A stretch of DNA of 64,000 nucleotides, taken from positions 5,651,115 to 5,715,114 of the forward strand of contig CP053161.1 of the NCBI GenBank assembly GCA_014607495.2. Direction: 5' to 3'. Source of the DNA: Carposina sasakii (taxonomy: Eukaryota; Arthropoda; Insecta; Lepidoptera; Carposinidae). The translations under genes and the position numbers were made by a program. The notes beneath the pieces are model-generated. The model was not told where the DNA came from. It was given only the letters and a program-made list of their open reading frames with translations, and searched no databases. Positions 2,400 through 57,404 of this stretch are shown here, one piece after another (within the stretch, counting starts at the first letter, position 1; every line of letters begins with the position of its first letter).

Positions 2400-2756
2400 T
2401 ATTTACAGACTCGTGGACGCTCGTGACTCCGTCCGCGTAGACTACAGAAAAAACAAAATGTCGAAATTATCCGGGATAAAAACATTTTCCCGGGATAAAA
2501 AGTAGCCTATATGTTAAGTGGGACCTGTCACAATATATTCGTGAAAACTGCATTGAAATCGGTTTCAGCCGTTTCTGAGAGTAGCGTGCACAAATGCACA
2601 GACAAACCGACAAACAGACAAACCGACAGACAAATCGACAAACAGACAAAAATTTCAAAAATCATTGTTTTGGGCACTATTGCGTTGATAAAGGTCTCCT
2701 ATAATATTTTATGTCATATATCTTCCATGTACAGACTGCGACCCGTTACATTTTTA
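2400..2756 (-). repeat. Helitron-like repeat, left half, split by the DIRS element
   Basis: Begins with a variant of the 'gtggacgcccgcgactccg' end and continues through 'ccgggataaaaacattttcc' and a stretch rich in gacaaacagaca. It ends gttacatttttatta, where the DIRS element starts; the host repeat resumes at 7,661 as tatgtatagatag. The same repeat without insertion is at 45,555-45,750. Confidence 0.6.
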
Positions 2757-2765
2757 TTACATTTC

Positions 2766-2917
2766 GTACGTTTCATTCTTTGATATATTTTTAACACATG
2801 TAGTACTTTTATTGTACTGGCAACTTCGCACAATTTCAGAGTGGGTAATTCGAAAACAGAACTACCCTACAACTTACGACACTATTCCTAGTCTACCGAT
2901 AATTTCCTTCATTCTTT
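2766..2917 (+). repeat. Left inverted terminal repeat of the DIRS element
   Basis: 152 bp from gtacgtttcattc to ccttcattcttt. It matches the reverse complement of 7,454-7,605 almost base for base; the visible difference is ctttg against cgaag after the 'tttcatt' block near the outer end. Confidence 0.92.
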
Positions 2918-3009
2918 TTTTGTGCGCGGCAACGAGCACACGTTTTCAATTCTAGTATTATAGTTTAGTTTATTCTATTTTTCAAATTTATTATCAGAGT
3001 ATTAAGAAC

Positions 3010-4634
3010 ATGCCTAAACGCAAAGCTTCTAGTGAAATTAACTATTACTTAAATAAAATTAAGAAATTAAAAGAAAGCCAAAACAAGAAGCGAACTAGAG
3101 TGATTCTTTATTCGTCATCGTCAGATTCTGAGGAAAATGAAGGTACACGAGTCAAAATGTTCTAAGACAAGTTCTGTATAATTTTTTTGTGAACTAAAAT
3201 AAGCATCTTTAAGTTAACCTGGAGGATATCACAATGAGGGTATCACGAAGGTTTAACATGATGCATAAAAATTAACCGAGAGGTTGACTGCGGGTCAACA
3301 CGACGGTATTCAGAATAAGCATCTTTAAGTTAACCTGGAGGATATCACAATGAGGGTATCACGAAGGTTTAACATGATGCATAAAATTAACCGGGAGGTT
3401 GACTGCGGGTCAACACGACGGTATTCAGAATAAGCATCTTTAAGTTAACCTGGAGGATATCACAATGAGGGTATCACGAAGGTTTAACATGATGCATAAA
3501 ATTAACCGGGAGGTTGACTGCGGGTCAACACGACGGTATTCAGAATAAGCATCTTTAAGTTAACCTGGAGGATATCACAATGAGGGTATCACGAAGGTTT
3601 AACATGATGCAAAAAATTAACCGGGAGGTTGACTGCGGGTCAACACGACGGTATTCAGAATATAGTGTGTATAGTCAGATATTCAATGATATATAAAATA
3701 AAATTCACATATAATTGTTCTAGACGGAACCGCACAAGATGATGTAATTCAATACACCTCAGCAACAGAGTCCCAAGAGAAACTGGAAAATACTCCGGTA
3801 GAAGTTAATATAACCCCGGAAGCTCAAAACGAGACACCTGACCTCGACCCGGAGCTTTTATTAGCGTTGGATGATACAACGGACGAGCAACCGATGTTTG
3901 GTGAAAAAATTCACCACACTCTGGCACAACGCTGGTTGCCTATATTAGCGAAGGGACTAAATAAAGACACAAAGGAAAAATTGCTTAAAAAATACCAGGT
4001 ACCTGAAAATTGTCAATTACTAAAAGCACCGACATTAAACGCCGAAATAAAAGCTGCTGTATCTGATATCACTAAAATTCGCGATAAAAATATTCAGTTA
4101 AAGCAAGACCAATTAGGGCTTGGAATAACAGCAATTAATAAAGCCATTACATTACTCCTCCTTGGAGATGACAAGATAAAAGCAATAGAGGTACTGTCGG
4201 ATAGCTGCAGGATCTTGACTGACGTACATTACATAGAAACAGAGCTCAGAACAAAACTTATAACACCTTGCCTCGATAAATCCTTTACGCCATTAATCAA
4301 AGATCATGAACGAGACAGCACGCTCTTTGGTGATAAACTATCGGAGACCATAAAAGCCTCAAAGGCTATTTCCAGACAAGGTCTACAAATTAAGAAACCG
4401 ACACATAAGACAGCACCTGCACATACAAATGGCCCATCCACTTCAAGATCTCGCCTTCCTGGAAACGAGATTCGCCCCCTTCGTTACACATCAGGGAACA
4501 GGGGGGGGGGGCGCGGAGGCTTTCCACGAACAACGACATCATACAGACGCGGAGCCACATCGACGACGACACTGACACGATCTCGTGCCTACTCGAACCA
4601 GAGCAGTCAGCAGCGAGCCTACACGCGACATTAG
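3010..4634 (+). CDS. DIRS ORF1, gag-like protein, spliced
   Basis: Exon 1 (3,010-3,142) starts at an ATG and encodes a basic N-terminus followed by a serine/acid patch (SSSSDSEENE). A GT donor at 3,143 and a TTCTAG acceptor at 3,721-3,723 join it in frame (phase 1, GAC codon) to exon 2 (3,724-4,634), giving about 347 residues. Exon 2 is acidic at first (near TPDLDPELLLALDD), helical in the middle and ends in a Gly/Arg/Ser/Thr-rich basic tail (GNRGGGRGGFPR), plausibly nucleic-acid binding. There is no CCHC zinc knuckle, as is usual for DIRS ORF1. The tail overlaps the start of the RT frame. The splice is inferred: without it exon 1 stops soon after the donor. Confidence 0.75.
3198..3658 (+). 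repeat. Four-copy 115-bp tandem repeat in the ORF1 intron
   Basis: Copies are 3,198-3,313 (116 bp), 3,314-3,428, 3,429-3,543 and 3,544-3,658 (115 bp each). They differ by only a few bases, for example ataaaaatt, ataaaatt and aaaaaatt at one spot. Each holds short inverted segments such as gttgac...gtcaac and gttaacct...aggtttaac. The array fills most of the 581-bp intron. Near identity means recent amplification. Confidence 0.95.
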
Positions 4635-5304
4635 ATAAACAGGTACATGCGGATCGCCTGCAATATTTTTATGATAACTGGATTAAAATCACTAATAATA
4701 AATTAGTTCTTTCCTGGATAAAAAAATGGCTACAAAATACCTTTTTCGAAAAAAGTTTACCAAAATAGTGTACCCTATAGTAATAATTTTACCACAGCAG
4801 AAATGCGTGATATGTCTAAGGCAATTAACAATTTTAGCTCCTAAAGCCAACGGCGGCAAAAGATTTATATCTGTTATATACCTAGACGATCTTTTATGCA
4901 TCGGCCACACACATTCTGAATGTTTATATAATGTAACGGAAACAGTGGCACTACTTGAAAGCTTAGGATTTGTTATAAATTATGAAAAAAGTTCGTTACG
5001 ACCTTTACAACAGACAAAGTTTCTGGGCTTTATTTATAACACTCTTGACATGACATTATCATTACCTATGGATAAAAGATTATATATACTAAAAATAGTT
5101 AAGAAATTTCAATCCTTACCATTATGCACTATAAAAGATCTTGCTTGTCTCATTGGTACCCTTACTGCAGCATGCCCAGCAGTTAAATACGGCTGGGTTT
5201 ACACTAAACGTCTCGAGCAAATTAAATACTTAGCATTACAAATATATAAAACATACGAAGCTAAATTTCGTCCTTCATCTATAATATATAATATATATAT
5301 ATAA
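4579..5304 (+). pseudogene. DIRS reverse transcriptase, internally deleted
   Basis: The RT frame opens overlapping the end of ORF1 (reading HADRLQYFYDNW) and stops at a TAG near 4,768. After a shift it reads AEMRDMSKAINN, then LAPKANGGKRF, then directly the catalytic IYLDDLL motif near 4,876-4,899. It continues through FLGFIYNT and a thumb-like segment to about 5,304. In intact RTs the GGKR motif and the YxDD motif are separated by well over 100 residues, so most of the palm is missing, including the first catalytic aspartate. This copy cannot encode a working RT. Confidence 0.85.
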
Positions 5305-5315
5305 CCTGACCTAGA

Positions 5316-5340
5316 ATGGTGGTCAAAAAAAAAAAAAAAG

Positions 5341-5374
<34 letters not shown>

Positions 5375-5690
5375 GACATCAACCCCATTAAAATCGAGTA
5401 GTTTTGAACTAGAGATCTTTACAGATGCATCCAGGTCTGGCTGGGGTGCATTTTGTAAAAATCAAAGAATAAATGGGAAATGGAAAGCTAGTGAAATAAA
5501 TTTTCATATTAATTTTCTAGAGTTGCTTGCAGTATTTTTTGGACTCAAATGCTTTGCACGTAATATCCGAAACTGTTCTATTTTATTACGTATTGACAAC
5601 ACTACGGCGTTGAGTTACGTTAATCGCATGGGTGGCATAAAGTATCCTCATCTAAATGATTTAGCGCGAGAAATTTGGCAATGGTGCTAG
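5316..5690 (+). pseudogene. DIRS RNase H domain
   Basis: Starts in an A-rich tract (5,325-5,372, nearly pure A) that separates it from RT. Then it reads IFTDASRSGWGAF (catalytic Asp), NFLELLAVFFGLK (catalytic Glu) and LLRIDNTTALSYVNR (catalytic Asp). A TAG at 5,688-5,690 interrupts the frame; past it the same frame goes on with KDNREADEESR, the usual C-terminal RNase H motif. The A tract could be a real insertion or an assembly artefact. Confidence 0.85.
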
Positions 5691-7097
5691 AAGCGAAATA
5701 TATGGTTATCTGCTTCTTATATTAAAAGTAAAGACAATAGAGAAGCTGATGAAGAGTCCCGAAAGGTTAATACGGACATTGAGTGGACATTAACAGATGA
5801 AGTATTTAATATACTAGTAACGGATTTAAGTAAGCCAGATATCGATTTATTCGCTTCTCGCACTAATGCCAAATGCCAAAGATATGTGTCGTGGAAGGCA
5901 GATCCAGATGCAGTTGCTGTGGATGCCTTCACTATCTCGTGGAAGGGCGTATACTTTTACGCTTTTCCACCATTCCCACTCGTATTAAAGGTCTTGGAAA
6001 AAATTATATTGGACAAGGCTGAAGGCATTCTAATATTTCCATACTGGCCTTCCCAGCCGTGGTTCCCACTGTTACAAAGAATGGTTACATCCGATATTAG
6101 TTTTATAAATCCTGGGTGCAGCCAAACTCTCAGGGACGCGTTCCTGAAACGAGGTGTCCCTATCGAATCATTGGACCTTATGATGGCTTCTTTGTCGAAA
6201 AATACTTTGCAACAATATGGTGTCTCCTACAAGTATTGGTGGCAGTACTGCACTGAGGCAAATATAGATCCATACACATGTTCCGTTCCAAGAATGTTGA
6301 CTTTTTTGACAAAACTGTTTAATAAAGGTGCGGCTTATGGCACCTTGAATAGTCATCGTTCGGCTCTAAGTTTGCTTTTCGGAGATGAGTCAGGATCTCA
6401 TGACCAAATTAAAAGACTATTGAAAGGTATATATAAATTAAGGCCCAATATTCCAAAATACGCATCCACATGGGACCCTCGTACAGTTTTGCAATATATT
6501 ACCTCATGGGGCCCTAATAAGGATTTAACTCTGCCAAAAATTTCTAAGAAACTCGTAATATTGCTGGCCTTATGTACTGCGCATAGAGCACAGACACTTT
6601 CTCTCATTAAAGCTAATAATATCCATATCAGCCTGAACGGTATAAAAATTGTAATTTCAGACATTATAAAAACATCAGCAGCTGGGCGCGACCAGCCAAT
6701 TCTGTTCTTGCCTTATTTTACAGAAAATATCAATATATGTCCTGCTACAGTTTTGCAAGATTATTTGTTAGTTACAAATGATTTAAGACCGAACACAGTC
6801 GAAAATCTCATAATAACTTCTAGAAGACCATATAAGTCTGTTAGCACCCAAACCATTAGCCGATGGATTAAGGAGATCCTGGCGGAAGCCGGGGTGGATG
6901 TGACAGCATGGAGTTCTCATAGCACACGACACGCTACCACATCTACAGCGCGAGCGCAGGGTGTCTCATTAGACGTTATTAGGAGAACTGCTGGCTGGTC
7001 GCAGGCCTCAGAAACATTTGGTAAATTCTATAACCGTCCAGTGACTGATGATGCTCACTTTGCAAGATCAGTCTTTCTGTCCAATCAATCATCATAA
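5691..7097 (+). CDS. DIRS tyrosine recombinase with upstream linker domain
   Basis: Open for 468 residues from the RNase H stop to TAA at 7,095-7,097. The first part finishes RNase H and holds a DIRS-typical linker (DLFASR, AFPPFPL, PYWPSQPW) sometimes compared with Dam-like methylases. The recombinase follows: first catalytic Arg in HRAQTLSL (about 6,578), His-x-x-Arg in SSHSTRHA (about 6,911), the GWS box in AGWSQASETF, and the nucleophilic Tyr in FGKFYNRP (about 7,020-7,040). All catalytic positions I can place are intact. The protein is expected to join a circular DNA copy to the chromosome. No separate start is obvious; it is probably made as part of the RT/RNase H polyprotein. Confidence 0.9.
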   Translation, partial: KRNIWLSASYIKSKDNREADEESRKVNTDIEWTLTDEVFNILVTDLSKPDIDLFASRTNAKCQRYVSWKADPDAVAVDAFTISWKGVYFYAFPPFPLVLKVLEKIILDKAEGILIFPYWPSQPWFPLLQRMVTSDISFINPGCSQTLRDAFLKRGVPIESLDLMMASLSKNTLQQYGVSYKYWWQYCTEANIDPYTCSVPRMLTFLTKLFNKGAAYGTLNSHRSALSLLFGDESGSHDQIKRLLKGIYKLRPNIPKYASTWDPRTVLQYITSWGPNKDLTLPKISKKLVILLALCTAHRAQTLSLIKANNIHISLNGIKIVISDIIKTSAAGRDQPILFLPYFTENINICPATVLQDYLLVTNDLRPNTVENLIITSRRPYKSVSTQTISRWIKEILAEAGVDVTAWSSHSTRHATTSTARAQGVSLDVIRRTAGWSQASETFGKFYNRPVTDDAHFARSVFLSNQSS

Positions 7098-7279
7098 ATT
7101 TAAAATAATTTATAAGCAGATTTATCACTTGTAAATTAATCTAATTTAAAAAGTTATATTTATGTTATAAATAAAAAATTGTAAAAATGTAGTGTTCTTT
7201 TTTCCCATAATTACAATAATAATTAGGTATACAACTCATTAACCAGGATGCTTGCAAAATTTTCACCTCTAAACATCTA

Positions 7280-7396
7280 CATGTGTTAAAAATATATCAA
7301 AGAATGAAACGTACGAAATGTAATTGGTGATTAAACGAACTTACCTGTAAGTGAAGTTCTATCACAATTATATGAGTACGTTTCATTCGAAGATAT
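7280..7396 (+). repeat. Internal complementary region of the DIRS element
   Basis: 7,280-7,323 is the reverse complement of the outer left end (2,757-2,800), and 7,324-7,396 that of the outer right end (7,585-7,657). They meet as gtaa|ttggtg. So the ICR stores the joined ends of the element in inverse orientation, as in DIRS-1, where it serves as template for completing the circle. Confidence 0.93.
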
Positions 7397-7453
7397 AAGA
7401 TAAAACCCTCCCTTCCCAGATCCCTTAAAACTAAGAAAATTTTGTGATGCTCT

Positions 7454-7605
7454 AAAGAATGAAGGAAATTATCGGTAGACTAGGAATAGTGTCGTAAGTT
7501 GTAGGGTAGTTCTGTTTTCGAATTACCCACTCTGAAATTGTGCGAAGTTGCCAGTACAATAAAAGTACTACATGTGTTAAAAATATATCTTCGAATGAAA
7601 CGTAC
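7454..7605 (-). repeat. Right inverted terminal repeat of the DIRS element
   Basis: Reverse-complement partner of 2,766-2,917. Outside it, 7,606-7,657 is the unique right extension ending tttaatcaccaa, followed by the shared TTA. Confidence 0.92.
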
Positions 7606-7660
7606 TCATATAATTGTGATAGAACTTCACTTACAGGTAAGTTCGTTTAATCACCAATTA

Positions 7661-8458
7661 TATGTATAGATAGAAGAACATAGATTGAAAGCTGTATGCT
7701 TGAATAGTATTTAATTGTATCAGTATTGTATAAATTGTATTGTGTTCGTGACAATGAATCGGCAAATCCGAGGGTCAGCGGAGGATGTAGGGCCCGGTGG
7801 TAGGCGAACCCTCGATGGAAGCTTGAATAGTAGGTATTTTTTTACAAATAAAAAAAGTTGAGAAAGCTAGGGTCAGAAAATGCATTCATAAGCACTATTC
7901 AACTTGTGTTTTCGAAGCATTTGCATGATTGTTGAAATGCAGTCTTGAATTCTCGTAATCAAATATTTCTTACTAGAAAATCCATTACATATTAATTTAC
8001 TAGACAATAGAATACCTACTAATTCCACAAGAGGAATATTATGCCTCTATAAAATGGAAGTCCATTTACCGCAAGTCAAATCAATGGCCTTTAGGCAACT
8101 TTTGCTCATCCTCCTATATTCTCTGTTTCTCTTTTAATGACGTCTATCTAATCTTGCGCCTAAATGTATAATAGTGGACGCCCACGACTTCTTCCGCGTA
8201 AAATTTTAAGTTATTCTCTTTCCCTTGGTAATTTTGAGATATGCTTTATTTGTGTTACCTTGAACTCCAAAGGATTCGCATTGTCCCATACAAACTTTCC
8301 CCCTTTACCTCCAATGATTTCGGAAAATCCCTTCTTATCGCATGCCTACGTCAAACAAAGAATACACCCTTCAAGTTTCAAATCTCTAAGATCAGAAAAA
8401 TGGCATGTGTTGTGCATTGATCCGGCAGTCAGTCACTAAGGACAAAGCTATCTGTATG
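7661..8458. other. Intergenic with repeat fragments
   Basis: Opens with the resumed host repeat (tatgtatagatagaag). Around 7,762-7,812 is an inverted fragment of the MITE family seen at 1,298 (agggcccggtggtaggcg). Near 8,172 a piece of the Helitron-like end (gtggacgcccacgacttctt) occurs. The 91-codon ORF at 8,164-8,439 starts in that repeat and shows no known domain. Confidence 0.45.
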
Positions 8459-33567: not shown

Positions 33568-36500
33568 TTATTCTGAATCGCTTTCAACTGTATTGCTCTC
33601 AGTTTTAATCAAATTAGAAAAAAATAAGTGATATTCCTTTGGTATAATCAGTTTGTGGCACATGTCCATTAAATCTTTGTGTTTATTTTTATCTATTGGG
33701 ATCGGCTTGTTGTAAGCTGGGCGAAGATCGCAAATTTCAGTATTATGGACAATGTTGTTACGTGTTGCTTTAGGTTTATTAGCACAATCAATCCAGCTGT
33801 ACGAATCTTGCATGTAGCTAGTTTTATAAAATAATTTGTAAGGATTTTCTGCCTCAGTCCTTATTTCGGTGACCTTATTCCATTGCATCTTAGACCCATC
33901 AGAGCTAAAAATCCAGTTATTAACCTTTTTAAGCAAAGCTTTGAAGTCCATTACAATATCTTGAGAAACTTCAGTGACTTTATAAGATTTATCATCGGTT
34001 TTAGCGAATTGGAACGCTGTGTACCACTGAGCAGGTGTATAAAGTATTTTATCTCTAGTCTGTCTTTCTATTAGAGCATGCATACTGTCGCCCTCATTCT
34101 GTGTATGGCCAACAATTAAGAAACGATGACTAATTTGTATTTTATATTTATAACTGGCCATCATATACATCAGAAAAACGATCCTGTTTCGATTCTGACC
34201 ACCACAGTTATCAGACCAGAATTTGTACTCTTTTATACCAACGTTGACTGTTTGCTCAATGAATTTATAAACACAGCTAGCAATTTCATTTGCCCTCTTT
34301 TAGCTGTCTGTTGGTGCCAGGTGAAGCAATAACCTTGACGACATCCTATATCAAATATTGTAAAATTATAAACTGTAAGTTTACGTTTATAATAAAATGT
34401 GCTAACGTTTCCATGGGGTACATTCAAGCACTTTTGGAGATCGTAAGCTGCTGTTAGAATTTCAGGTTGCTGTTGTGCTAATTCTTTGTCTTCTGCTTTT
34501 AACTTTCTTGCTAAATCTTTCTGATTCAAGTGTTCTGCCTGTTTTGCTATTTCTTGATCTGTGCGCTGTTTATTATTTTCAAATATGTGACATTCTTCAC
34601 AAACATCTTTTTTGGGCTTGTGGAAACCAATATTTAAGTTTTTGTTGATAATATCACGATATTGTCGCACGCTGGTAACTTTATTTGTGTACTTATTGGG
34701 ATCAAACCATTCTTGATACAATTTATACATTTTAGGAAACGACAAAGATCCATCAAGATATTTTTTAGTGGAATCTTTGCGGATATAGTGTGATTCCACA
34801 GGCTGCAAATTTGCAACATGATCAAGTACACTACTTTTCATGTCATCAGTTATTTTTTTCAGATGATTAACATGCTTTCCTCGCTGATCAGACTGTACAA
34901 CTCCTTGTCCTTTTTCGAGTTTTTCCAAAGCTGTATATAGAAAATTGAAGCTTATAGATAGAGTATTCAAAAAACATAGTTTTACATACAGGAACGTTTC
35001 TAATAACAACGTAGTCTTTTTCATAAATAGGTAAAGTGTAAGAAATAGTACTCAGTCTTTTCGAATTCTCCTTATCTGTTGTTGTCCTCTTTTTCATGTC
35101 TTTAGTAGCATACTTAGTCAAAAAGTCCCACTGCCTGGAATGATCTCCAATATTCCAAAACATTTCAAAAATGTTTGCTCTAGCCTCTTCCGATATTTTC
35201 TCACTACATTTTTTTCTACACGTTGTAGGACATGAAGGTTTTAGTATTTTTTTATTATGCACTTTTCCATTTCTACTAGTATATTGTAAGCCTCGATTGA
35301 CGTTCCGTTTTCTTACCTCATCCTTCCAATCCTTTATGAAACGTTCTCTTTGTCTACCTTTGTCTTTCTTGGTCTCTGAAACGCGTTTGCGACTCCGAAA
35401 AGTTGGAGTAGTAACTGGGGAGTCTGTGTCGTTTACATTAGATGCAGGAGTAGGCAGGACTATCAACACAAGAGGCGTCCTCGCGAAAGGGTGAAGGGCA
35501 AAAATCATAGTAGGGTGATGGCATTGGAGTATCATCATGTATTTTGTCATCACAGTTACTGGTACTAGGATTTTCTTTGATATTCAAACCTGGAATGTTC
35601 GTGCTTTCACAAAAATATGGATTAGGTGTGTTAGGTTGCGAATCTTCAATTTCTGAGGGCGATGAAGTGTTAGTAGATAGTAGAGTGCCAGTTTTGTGTG
35701 GAGGTTCGTCAGGAAGTTTTTATTGATAGGAGCTGGTGAAAAATCCGGAATATCATTCGGAAAAATAGAAGAATTGGAGGGTAGATTTCGTAAAAAGTCA
35801 TCAGTATCTTCCAAATCGATGTCATCTAATATTGATAACTCTTCTTGGGTGAAATGTGCATCGGCAGGAAGAGGAGATTCTGAAAAGAGCAAACTATTAC
35901 AGTCGTGCAATACATAGAAACAAATTCTGTAAACTATTTTTTATTATATAAACTAGCTACGTTATGTCCATGTAGAAGCCGACACTTATATATAAGTACT
36001 TAAATATCTGTCGTTATTTCAATGCTCTAACATGCCATGATTTCATAACTCCAATACATAAATATTTTATATTGTAAAGCAACATGAGCAATAAATAAAT
36101 GAATATGAAACTTTGCTTATATCCAAGGCTGCTTTTATTCTAATACTACATTTTCACTAAAAGGAATTCAGAGTTTCAGGCGTAATAATGAAAGAAACAG
36201 AGAGACATTCACGGTCACTTCGAATTTGAAGTATTAAATAAAATACTTATAAAAAAACACTATCCCTATTGTCCTTTTTTCTATAATATAAAAAAAATTA
36301 ACATGGTGGCACATGGAATTGAATCCGGTACCTCTTCATACATAAATGATTAAATAACTAACATTATTTATTTATTCGCTCAATAACAATGTGTAAACCA
36401 TTTTAATAAATCATACAAACAAGTTACAGAAATCGGTAGAATGAGTCAAGTTAAAACTTAGCAAAAAATATTCAACGTATACTGATCTATCTTAGTTATA

Positions 36501-45554: not shown

Positions 45555-45750
45555 ATTATTATATTATATCAGCTGTTTCTGAGATTAGCGTGCACAAACG
45601 CACAGACAAACCGACAAACAATCAAACATTCCAAAAATCATTGTTTTGGGTACTATTGCGTTGATAAAGGTCTCCTATAATATTTTTTCTCATATATCTT
45701 CCATGTACAGACAGCGATCCGTTACATTTTTATTATATGTATAGATAGAT
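45555..45750 (-). repeat. Helitron-like repeat with the unoccupied DIRS target
   Basis: Same repeat as 2,570-2,756 plus 7,661 onward: ttgttttgggtactattgcg, ttgataaaggtctcctataa, tatatcttccatgtacagac, then gttacatttttattatatgt and atagatagat. Position about 45,735 (ttatta|tatg) is where the DIRS element sits in the other copy. Confidence 0.8.
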
Positions 45751-57070: not shown

Positions 57071-57404
57071 TCTATACTAATATTATAAAGCTGAAGAGTT
57101 TGTTTGTTTGTTTGTTTGAACGCGCTAATCTCAGGAACTACTGGTCTGATTTGAAAAATTCTTTCAGTGTTAGATAGCCCATTTACCAAGGAAGGCTACA
57201 GTCTATACAACAACCTGCCCGGCTTCGCACGGGTACAACGCCCCCTCACGCGGACGAAGTCGTGGGCGGCTGCTATCTTCTATAATAAAACTGTAACCGG
57301 TCGCTGTTTGTGCATGCTTTTTTATTTGTCAAATACAATCAAATCAAGTCAGTAGGCTCCGAAACAGGCAGTCTACGCGGACCGAGTTGTGGGCGTCCAC
57401 TAGT
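57071..57404 (+). mobile_element. Helitron-like non-autonomous element, near complete
   Basis: Starts tctatactaatattataaag and ends gtgggcgtccactagt. TC start, CTAGT end and no target duplication are the Helitron pattern; the flanking bases are A on the left and T on the right. A (GTTT)n microsatellite lies at 57,104. 334 bp, no Rep/helicase coding. Confidence 0.65.

Follow-up and report, generated by a model that had tools for sequence, protein, structure and literature searches.

Examination of the window (the whole 64,000-nucleotide stretch of DNA that was analysed) revealed a DIRS1-like element with gag, a broken pol and a tyrosine recombinase, interrupting one copy of a dispersed repeat (Table 1). 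The initial annotation had described a filled and an empty copy of this host repeat, and the pair was recovered: the strings that it quoted are present in the sequence, the element occupies 2756-7660, and 45555-45750 holds the empty-site copy. BLAST of parts of the element identified no other copies of it within the window. On the minus strand, overlapping open frames at 33568-35583, of which 33568-34299 matches DUF7869 (35.6 bits, cut-off 26), are perhaps another mobile element.

Table 1. Features of the filled and empty sites and of the inserted element (positions are those of the window)
Feature	Position	Strand	Detail
Left portion of the filled host-repeat copy, up to and including ATTA	2565..2759	+	142 bp at 91.5% and 52 bp at 94% to 45569-45735
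DIRS1-like element	2756-7660		4.9 kb, interrupts one host-repeat copy
Left-junction ATTA (shared core)	2756..2759	+	Four-way junction comparison
Left terminus	2756..2917	+	2766-2917 pairs with the right inverted repeat, 149/152 to 7605-7454
Left stretch matching the ICR	2756-2803		48/48 to 7324-7277
gag, exon-like pieces 3010-3142 and 3724-4634	3010..4634	+	GT...AG stretch 3143-3723 between the pieces
RT remnant lacking the stretch before the YLDD motif	4702..5304	+	RVT_1 22.5 bits, below the cut-off of 29.6
RNase H-like reading frame	5400..5690	+	In-frame TAG at its end; identified by resemblance to the sequences of relatives
Methyltransferase-like domain and tyrosine recombinase, one open frame	5691..7097	+	Pfam scan
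Internal complementary region (ICR)	7277..7397	+	48/48 and 77/77 to the two termini
Right terminus	7454..7660	+	Inverted repeat 7454-7605 and right extension 7606-7660
Right-junction ATTA (shared core)	7657..7660	+	Four-way junction comparison
Host repeat resuming 3′ of the element (TATGTATAGATAGA)	7661..7674	+	14/14 to 45736-45749
Paralogous empty site in an uninterrupted host-repeat copy	45569..45749	+	Single ATTA at 45732-45735
Third, diverged host-repeat piece, also unfilled	57281..57316	-	36 bp at 86%

The termini of the element are inverted, and not the split direct repeats of PAT-like elements. Inverted terminal repeats are a DIRS1-like trait, and those of the element are nearly identical (149 of 152 positions); they differ at three neighbouring positions only, at which the left repeat reads CTTTG and the right one CGAAG, and the element has a right extension of 55 bp. 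The ICR is complementary to both termini, which is also a DIRS1-like trait, with an overlap of ATTA between the two matches. Its reverse complement reads as the right end, ATTA and the left end, ...TTTAATCACCAATTA|CATTTCGTACG, so that the joined ends do carry the TTA reported in the initial annotation, within ATTA. Each half of the ICR carries the version of its own end at the three differing positions, which is what templating of each end by the ICR would produce. The near-identity of the repeats (48/48, 77/77 and, across the remainder of the inverted repeats, 136 identical bases) would speak for a young copy, as judged from the sequence.

On the other hand, pol is broken. In DIRS1-like elements, RT and RNase H are related to those of Ty3/Gypsy. 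The RT remnant in the window showed 58% identity over 149 aa to a protein from Choristoneura (P0007), which has residues between GGKRFI and SVIYLDD that the remnant lacks. The RT and RNase H-like frames are separated by a run of A interrupted by one G (5325-5372), and the RNase H-like frame is parted from the methyltransferase-recombinase frame by a stop codon. As the repeats look young yet pol is damaged, either the damage arose during copying or soon afterwards, or the copy moved with the enzymes of another copy.

The recombinase was identified by a Phage_integrase match (PF00589, 40.8 bits, cut-off 27.1) in 5691-7097, as in DIRS1-like elements, which have such a recombinase instead of an integrase. 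R299, R413, W436 and Y447 are invariant in the alignment of 8 recombinase proteins, one of them from the window, whereas 2 of the 8 have Y at H410; we take these five to be catalytic positions. Among 7990 candidates scored, 1887 recombinase relatives were detected at E<=0.001, and the first five named among the 120 matches listed are from moths and butterflies, by which the host would be a moth or butterfly. Solved structures gave 4 weak recombinase matches (best E 0.063). Searches with the recombinase gave 14 pattern matches in viral contigs and, with its alignment, 18 in genome contigs, none of which was confirmed, and a 21-base piece of the host repeat had 0 matches in viral contigs; these nulls say little, since the collections consist of viruses, bacteria and archaea. 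The same frame had a Dam match of 23.7 bits, below the cut-off of 28.1; a methyltransferase domain belongs to DIRS1-like elements and is missing from Ngaro and Viper according to the available part of PMC3266345. The alignment suggests that the stretch between the methyltransferase-like and recombinase domains is shorter than in a Tribolium relative.

The two pieces of gag form one continuous reading frame once a 581-bp GT...AG stretch is skipped. In total, 129 gag relatives were detected at E<=1e-3, and a Tribolium protein showed 40% identity over 146 aa; the Pfam scan of gag gave no match at E<=1. Within the proposed intron, 3198-3662 is made of about four head-to-tail units of 115-116 bp, 98-99% alike by self-BLAST. 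A start with MPKR, as in the first gag piece of the window, was found in 28 of the best 120 of the 129 relatives. Counted by hand, these were 28 of the 49 relatives from NCBI sources and none of the 71 from other sources, the latter being mostly from contigs shorter than 5 kb and possibly just cut. The other 21 of the 49 NCBI-source relatives have no MPKR, 3 of them beginning with MSKR or MPKKR. Among the other-source relatives whose first residues were inspected, LDN readings (in P0128, P0142, P0169 and P0213) and F-rich readings (in P0129, P0135, P0146 and P0148) lead into the homologous part of gag, which is what reading through a 3′ splice site would give. Among the 85 gag relatives without either mark, the first residues were inspected for 40.

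Judged from these reading frames, gag appears to contain an intron that is common to lepidopteran relatives. We consider it fairly probable that lepidopteran DIRS elements have a conserved spliceosomal intron early in gag, that the spliced RNA gives Gag while the unspliced RNA is copied and inserted, and that the intron of the window's copy, now filled with the 116-bp array, survived the very cycle that gave the precise insertion at ATTA. The available text of PMC3266345 contains no word starting with 'intron' or 'splic', and a search of the literature on DIRS gag introns gave no title evidently on the subject among the matches listed.

At the filled site, the left junction reads ...CCCGTTACATTTTTATTA|CATTTCGTACG (2759/2760) and the right junction ...TTTAATCACCAATTA|TATGTATAGATAGAAG (7660/7661), while the empty site reads ...TCCGTTACATTTTTATTA|TATGTATAGATAGATAG (45735/45736). 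The string common to the left and right filled junctions, the empty site and the ICR junction is ATTA, four bases, and the initial annotation, which had only TTA as shared, was thus short by one base. The dispersed repeat at 45555-45750 terminates in GTTACATTTTTATTATATGTATAGATAGATAGATAA, and its GATA-type tail hints at a LINE or SINE 3′ end. The third piece of the repeat, on the minus strand (57316-57281), has one ATTA followed by TA and no element. GTTACATTTTTATTA has exactly 2 occurrences in the window; at one mismatch or fewer there were 3 matches, against a shuffle mean of 0.11 and a largest shuffle value of 2.

Eight bases of the host flank, TTACATTT at 2746-2753, are also found at the left end of the element. 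A role of this 8-mer as a recognition site was weighed; on either strand, it occurs in 0.6% of 200,000 random 40-bp stretches of the window. The likeness was spotted only afterwards and was left as a probable coincidence. Extended homology between circle and target was also rejected as the basis of recognition, since the arms beside the core agree at 6/21 and 6/23 positions, which is about chance level.

It is very likely that the element is a DIRS1-like tyrosine-recombinase retrotransposon, precisely inserted at this one site in the 3′ part of a dispersed repeat of a lepidopteran-like genome. Taking the ICR junction, the recombinase and the published model together, we infer from this single site that recombination through the shared core is by far the best explanation. 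In such a scheme, the RNA of the element would be reverse-transcribed, with the ICR templating the missing end sequences, and a circle would form with the junction ...CACCA-ATTA-CATTTCG..., expected as CACCAATTACATTTCG. The recombinase would then cross circle and target (...TTTTT-ATTA-TATG...) within the bases that they have in common, so that the shared string would stand once at either end of the element, and no target DNA would be newly copied. The empty allele would be expected to read ...TTTTTATTATATGTATAG. Comparable sites were used in earlier DIRS work; the sole match of our literature search for DIRS empty sites was, by its title, on non-LTR elements, most subscription papers being outside the scope of the search. 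In the parts available of the respective papers, the published DIRS1 model has recombination take place at a 3-bp junction and leave the target unduplicated (PMC3266345), DIRS elements are described as lacking target duplications (PMC8969392), and circles were verified in Dictyostelium, where the replication mechanism is not fully proven (PMC5633606).

As to the register of the core, ATT, TTA or all four bases fit at this one site, and the ATT and TTA readings both do so since either partner has A as the next base past the core. ATT is probably the core, and TTA possibly so. In the available part of the PMC3266345 survey, 23 elements begin and end with NTT, mostly ATT, and by our own count of its Table 3 an ATT start is found in 13 of 28 elements and a TTA start in 2 of 28. 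The recombination across a 3-bp core proposed in the initial annotation agrees with the best explanation and with the published model, but its choice of TTA is one of several that fit, along with ATT and ATTA. With both strands counted, ATTA has 1258 sites in the window, and a shared AT-rich 4-mer of such frequency is weaker evidence than a rarer string would be.

Taken alone, the filled and empty sites would fit equally well an element running from CATTTCG to CACCA that an integrase or DDE enzyme inserted with a 4-bp duplication of ATTA, as this too would give ATTA on each side of the element and a single ATTA in the empty site. However, the ICR, as the internal copy of the joined ends, has ATTA between them. 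The element's own end-to-end template therefore already contains the string, which argues against duplication; if ATTA were duplicated target, its presence in the ICR would be a matter of chance, at about 0.006 for any two 4-mers drawn at random from the window or about 0.01 for ATTA itself. Moreover, the element encodes a tyrosine recombinase, and no DDE-type integrase was detected when three frames of the element (gag, RT and methyltransferase-recombinase) were scanned against Pfam. A duplication of ATTA is thus very unlikely, and the apparent absence of a target-site duplication at this one site rests on the empty site and the ICR junction together. The initial annotation had taken the empty site as proof of insertion without duplication; the filled and empty copies do not carry that far, while the ICR supports the direction of the claim.

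That the two copies are no filled and empty pair at all, with the repeat fragment cut off at ATTA by some earlier break and the right-hand match due to chance or to a simple GATA run, is extremely unlikely: the right-flank match is short, AT-rich and ends in a GATA-type run, but it extends over 14 bp directly after the core (18 bp with the core counted), for which two random 14-mers of the same composition would agree with a chance of about 1e-8, the 14-mer is absent from the rest of the window on both strands, and TATGTA precedes the GATA run.

Precise insertion by recombination through the shared core therefore remains the preferred reading, and the locus provides a clean worked example of DIRS integration, with the filled site, the empty site and the junction template found together in an insect-like genome. 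The three-way comparison shows that it is the ICR junction that carries the argument for insertion without duplication. The result is consistent with the published model and does not change it; the insertion mechanism is already published, and the element is an ordinary DIRS1-like one.

Compared as proteins only, the recombinases of the first three relatives among the matches listed (P0001-P0003, from Choristoneura, Parnassius and Maniola) showed 55-56% identity over 99-100% of the 468-aa frame. The element shares inverted repeats, an ICR, a recombinase and a circle-based integration model with DIRS-1 of Dictyostelium, as described in the available part of PMC5633606; unlike the element in the window, which lies in an unrelated repeat, DIRS-1 reportedly prefers its own copies as target. 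According to the values in Table 3 of Piednoel et al. 2011 (PMC3266345), DIRS1-2 has TTA termini, a reading that also fits the element in the window, and this element resembles BmDIRS1 of Bombyx mori in the ATT start, the AAT circular junction, the presence of a right extension only, the size (4870 bp in BmDIRS1 and 4904 here) and the ICR, which is of a similar order (40-62 in BmDIRS1 and 48-77 here). On the other hand, by the same tabulated values, which were compared in place of DNA, BmDIRS1 ends with ATA and has a right extension of 30 bp, while the element in the window ends with ATT(A) and has one of 55 bp; the broken pol and the single frame with methyltransferase-like and recombinase domains also set the latter apart from BmDIRS1.
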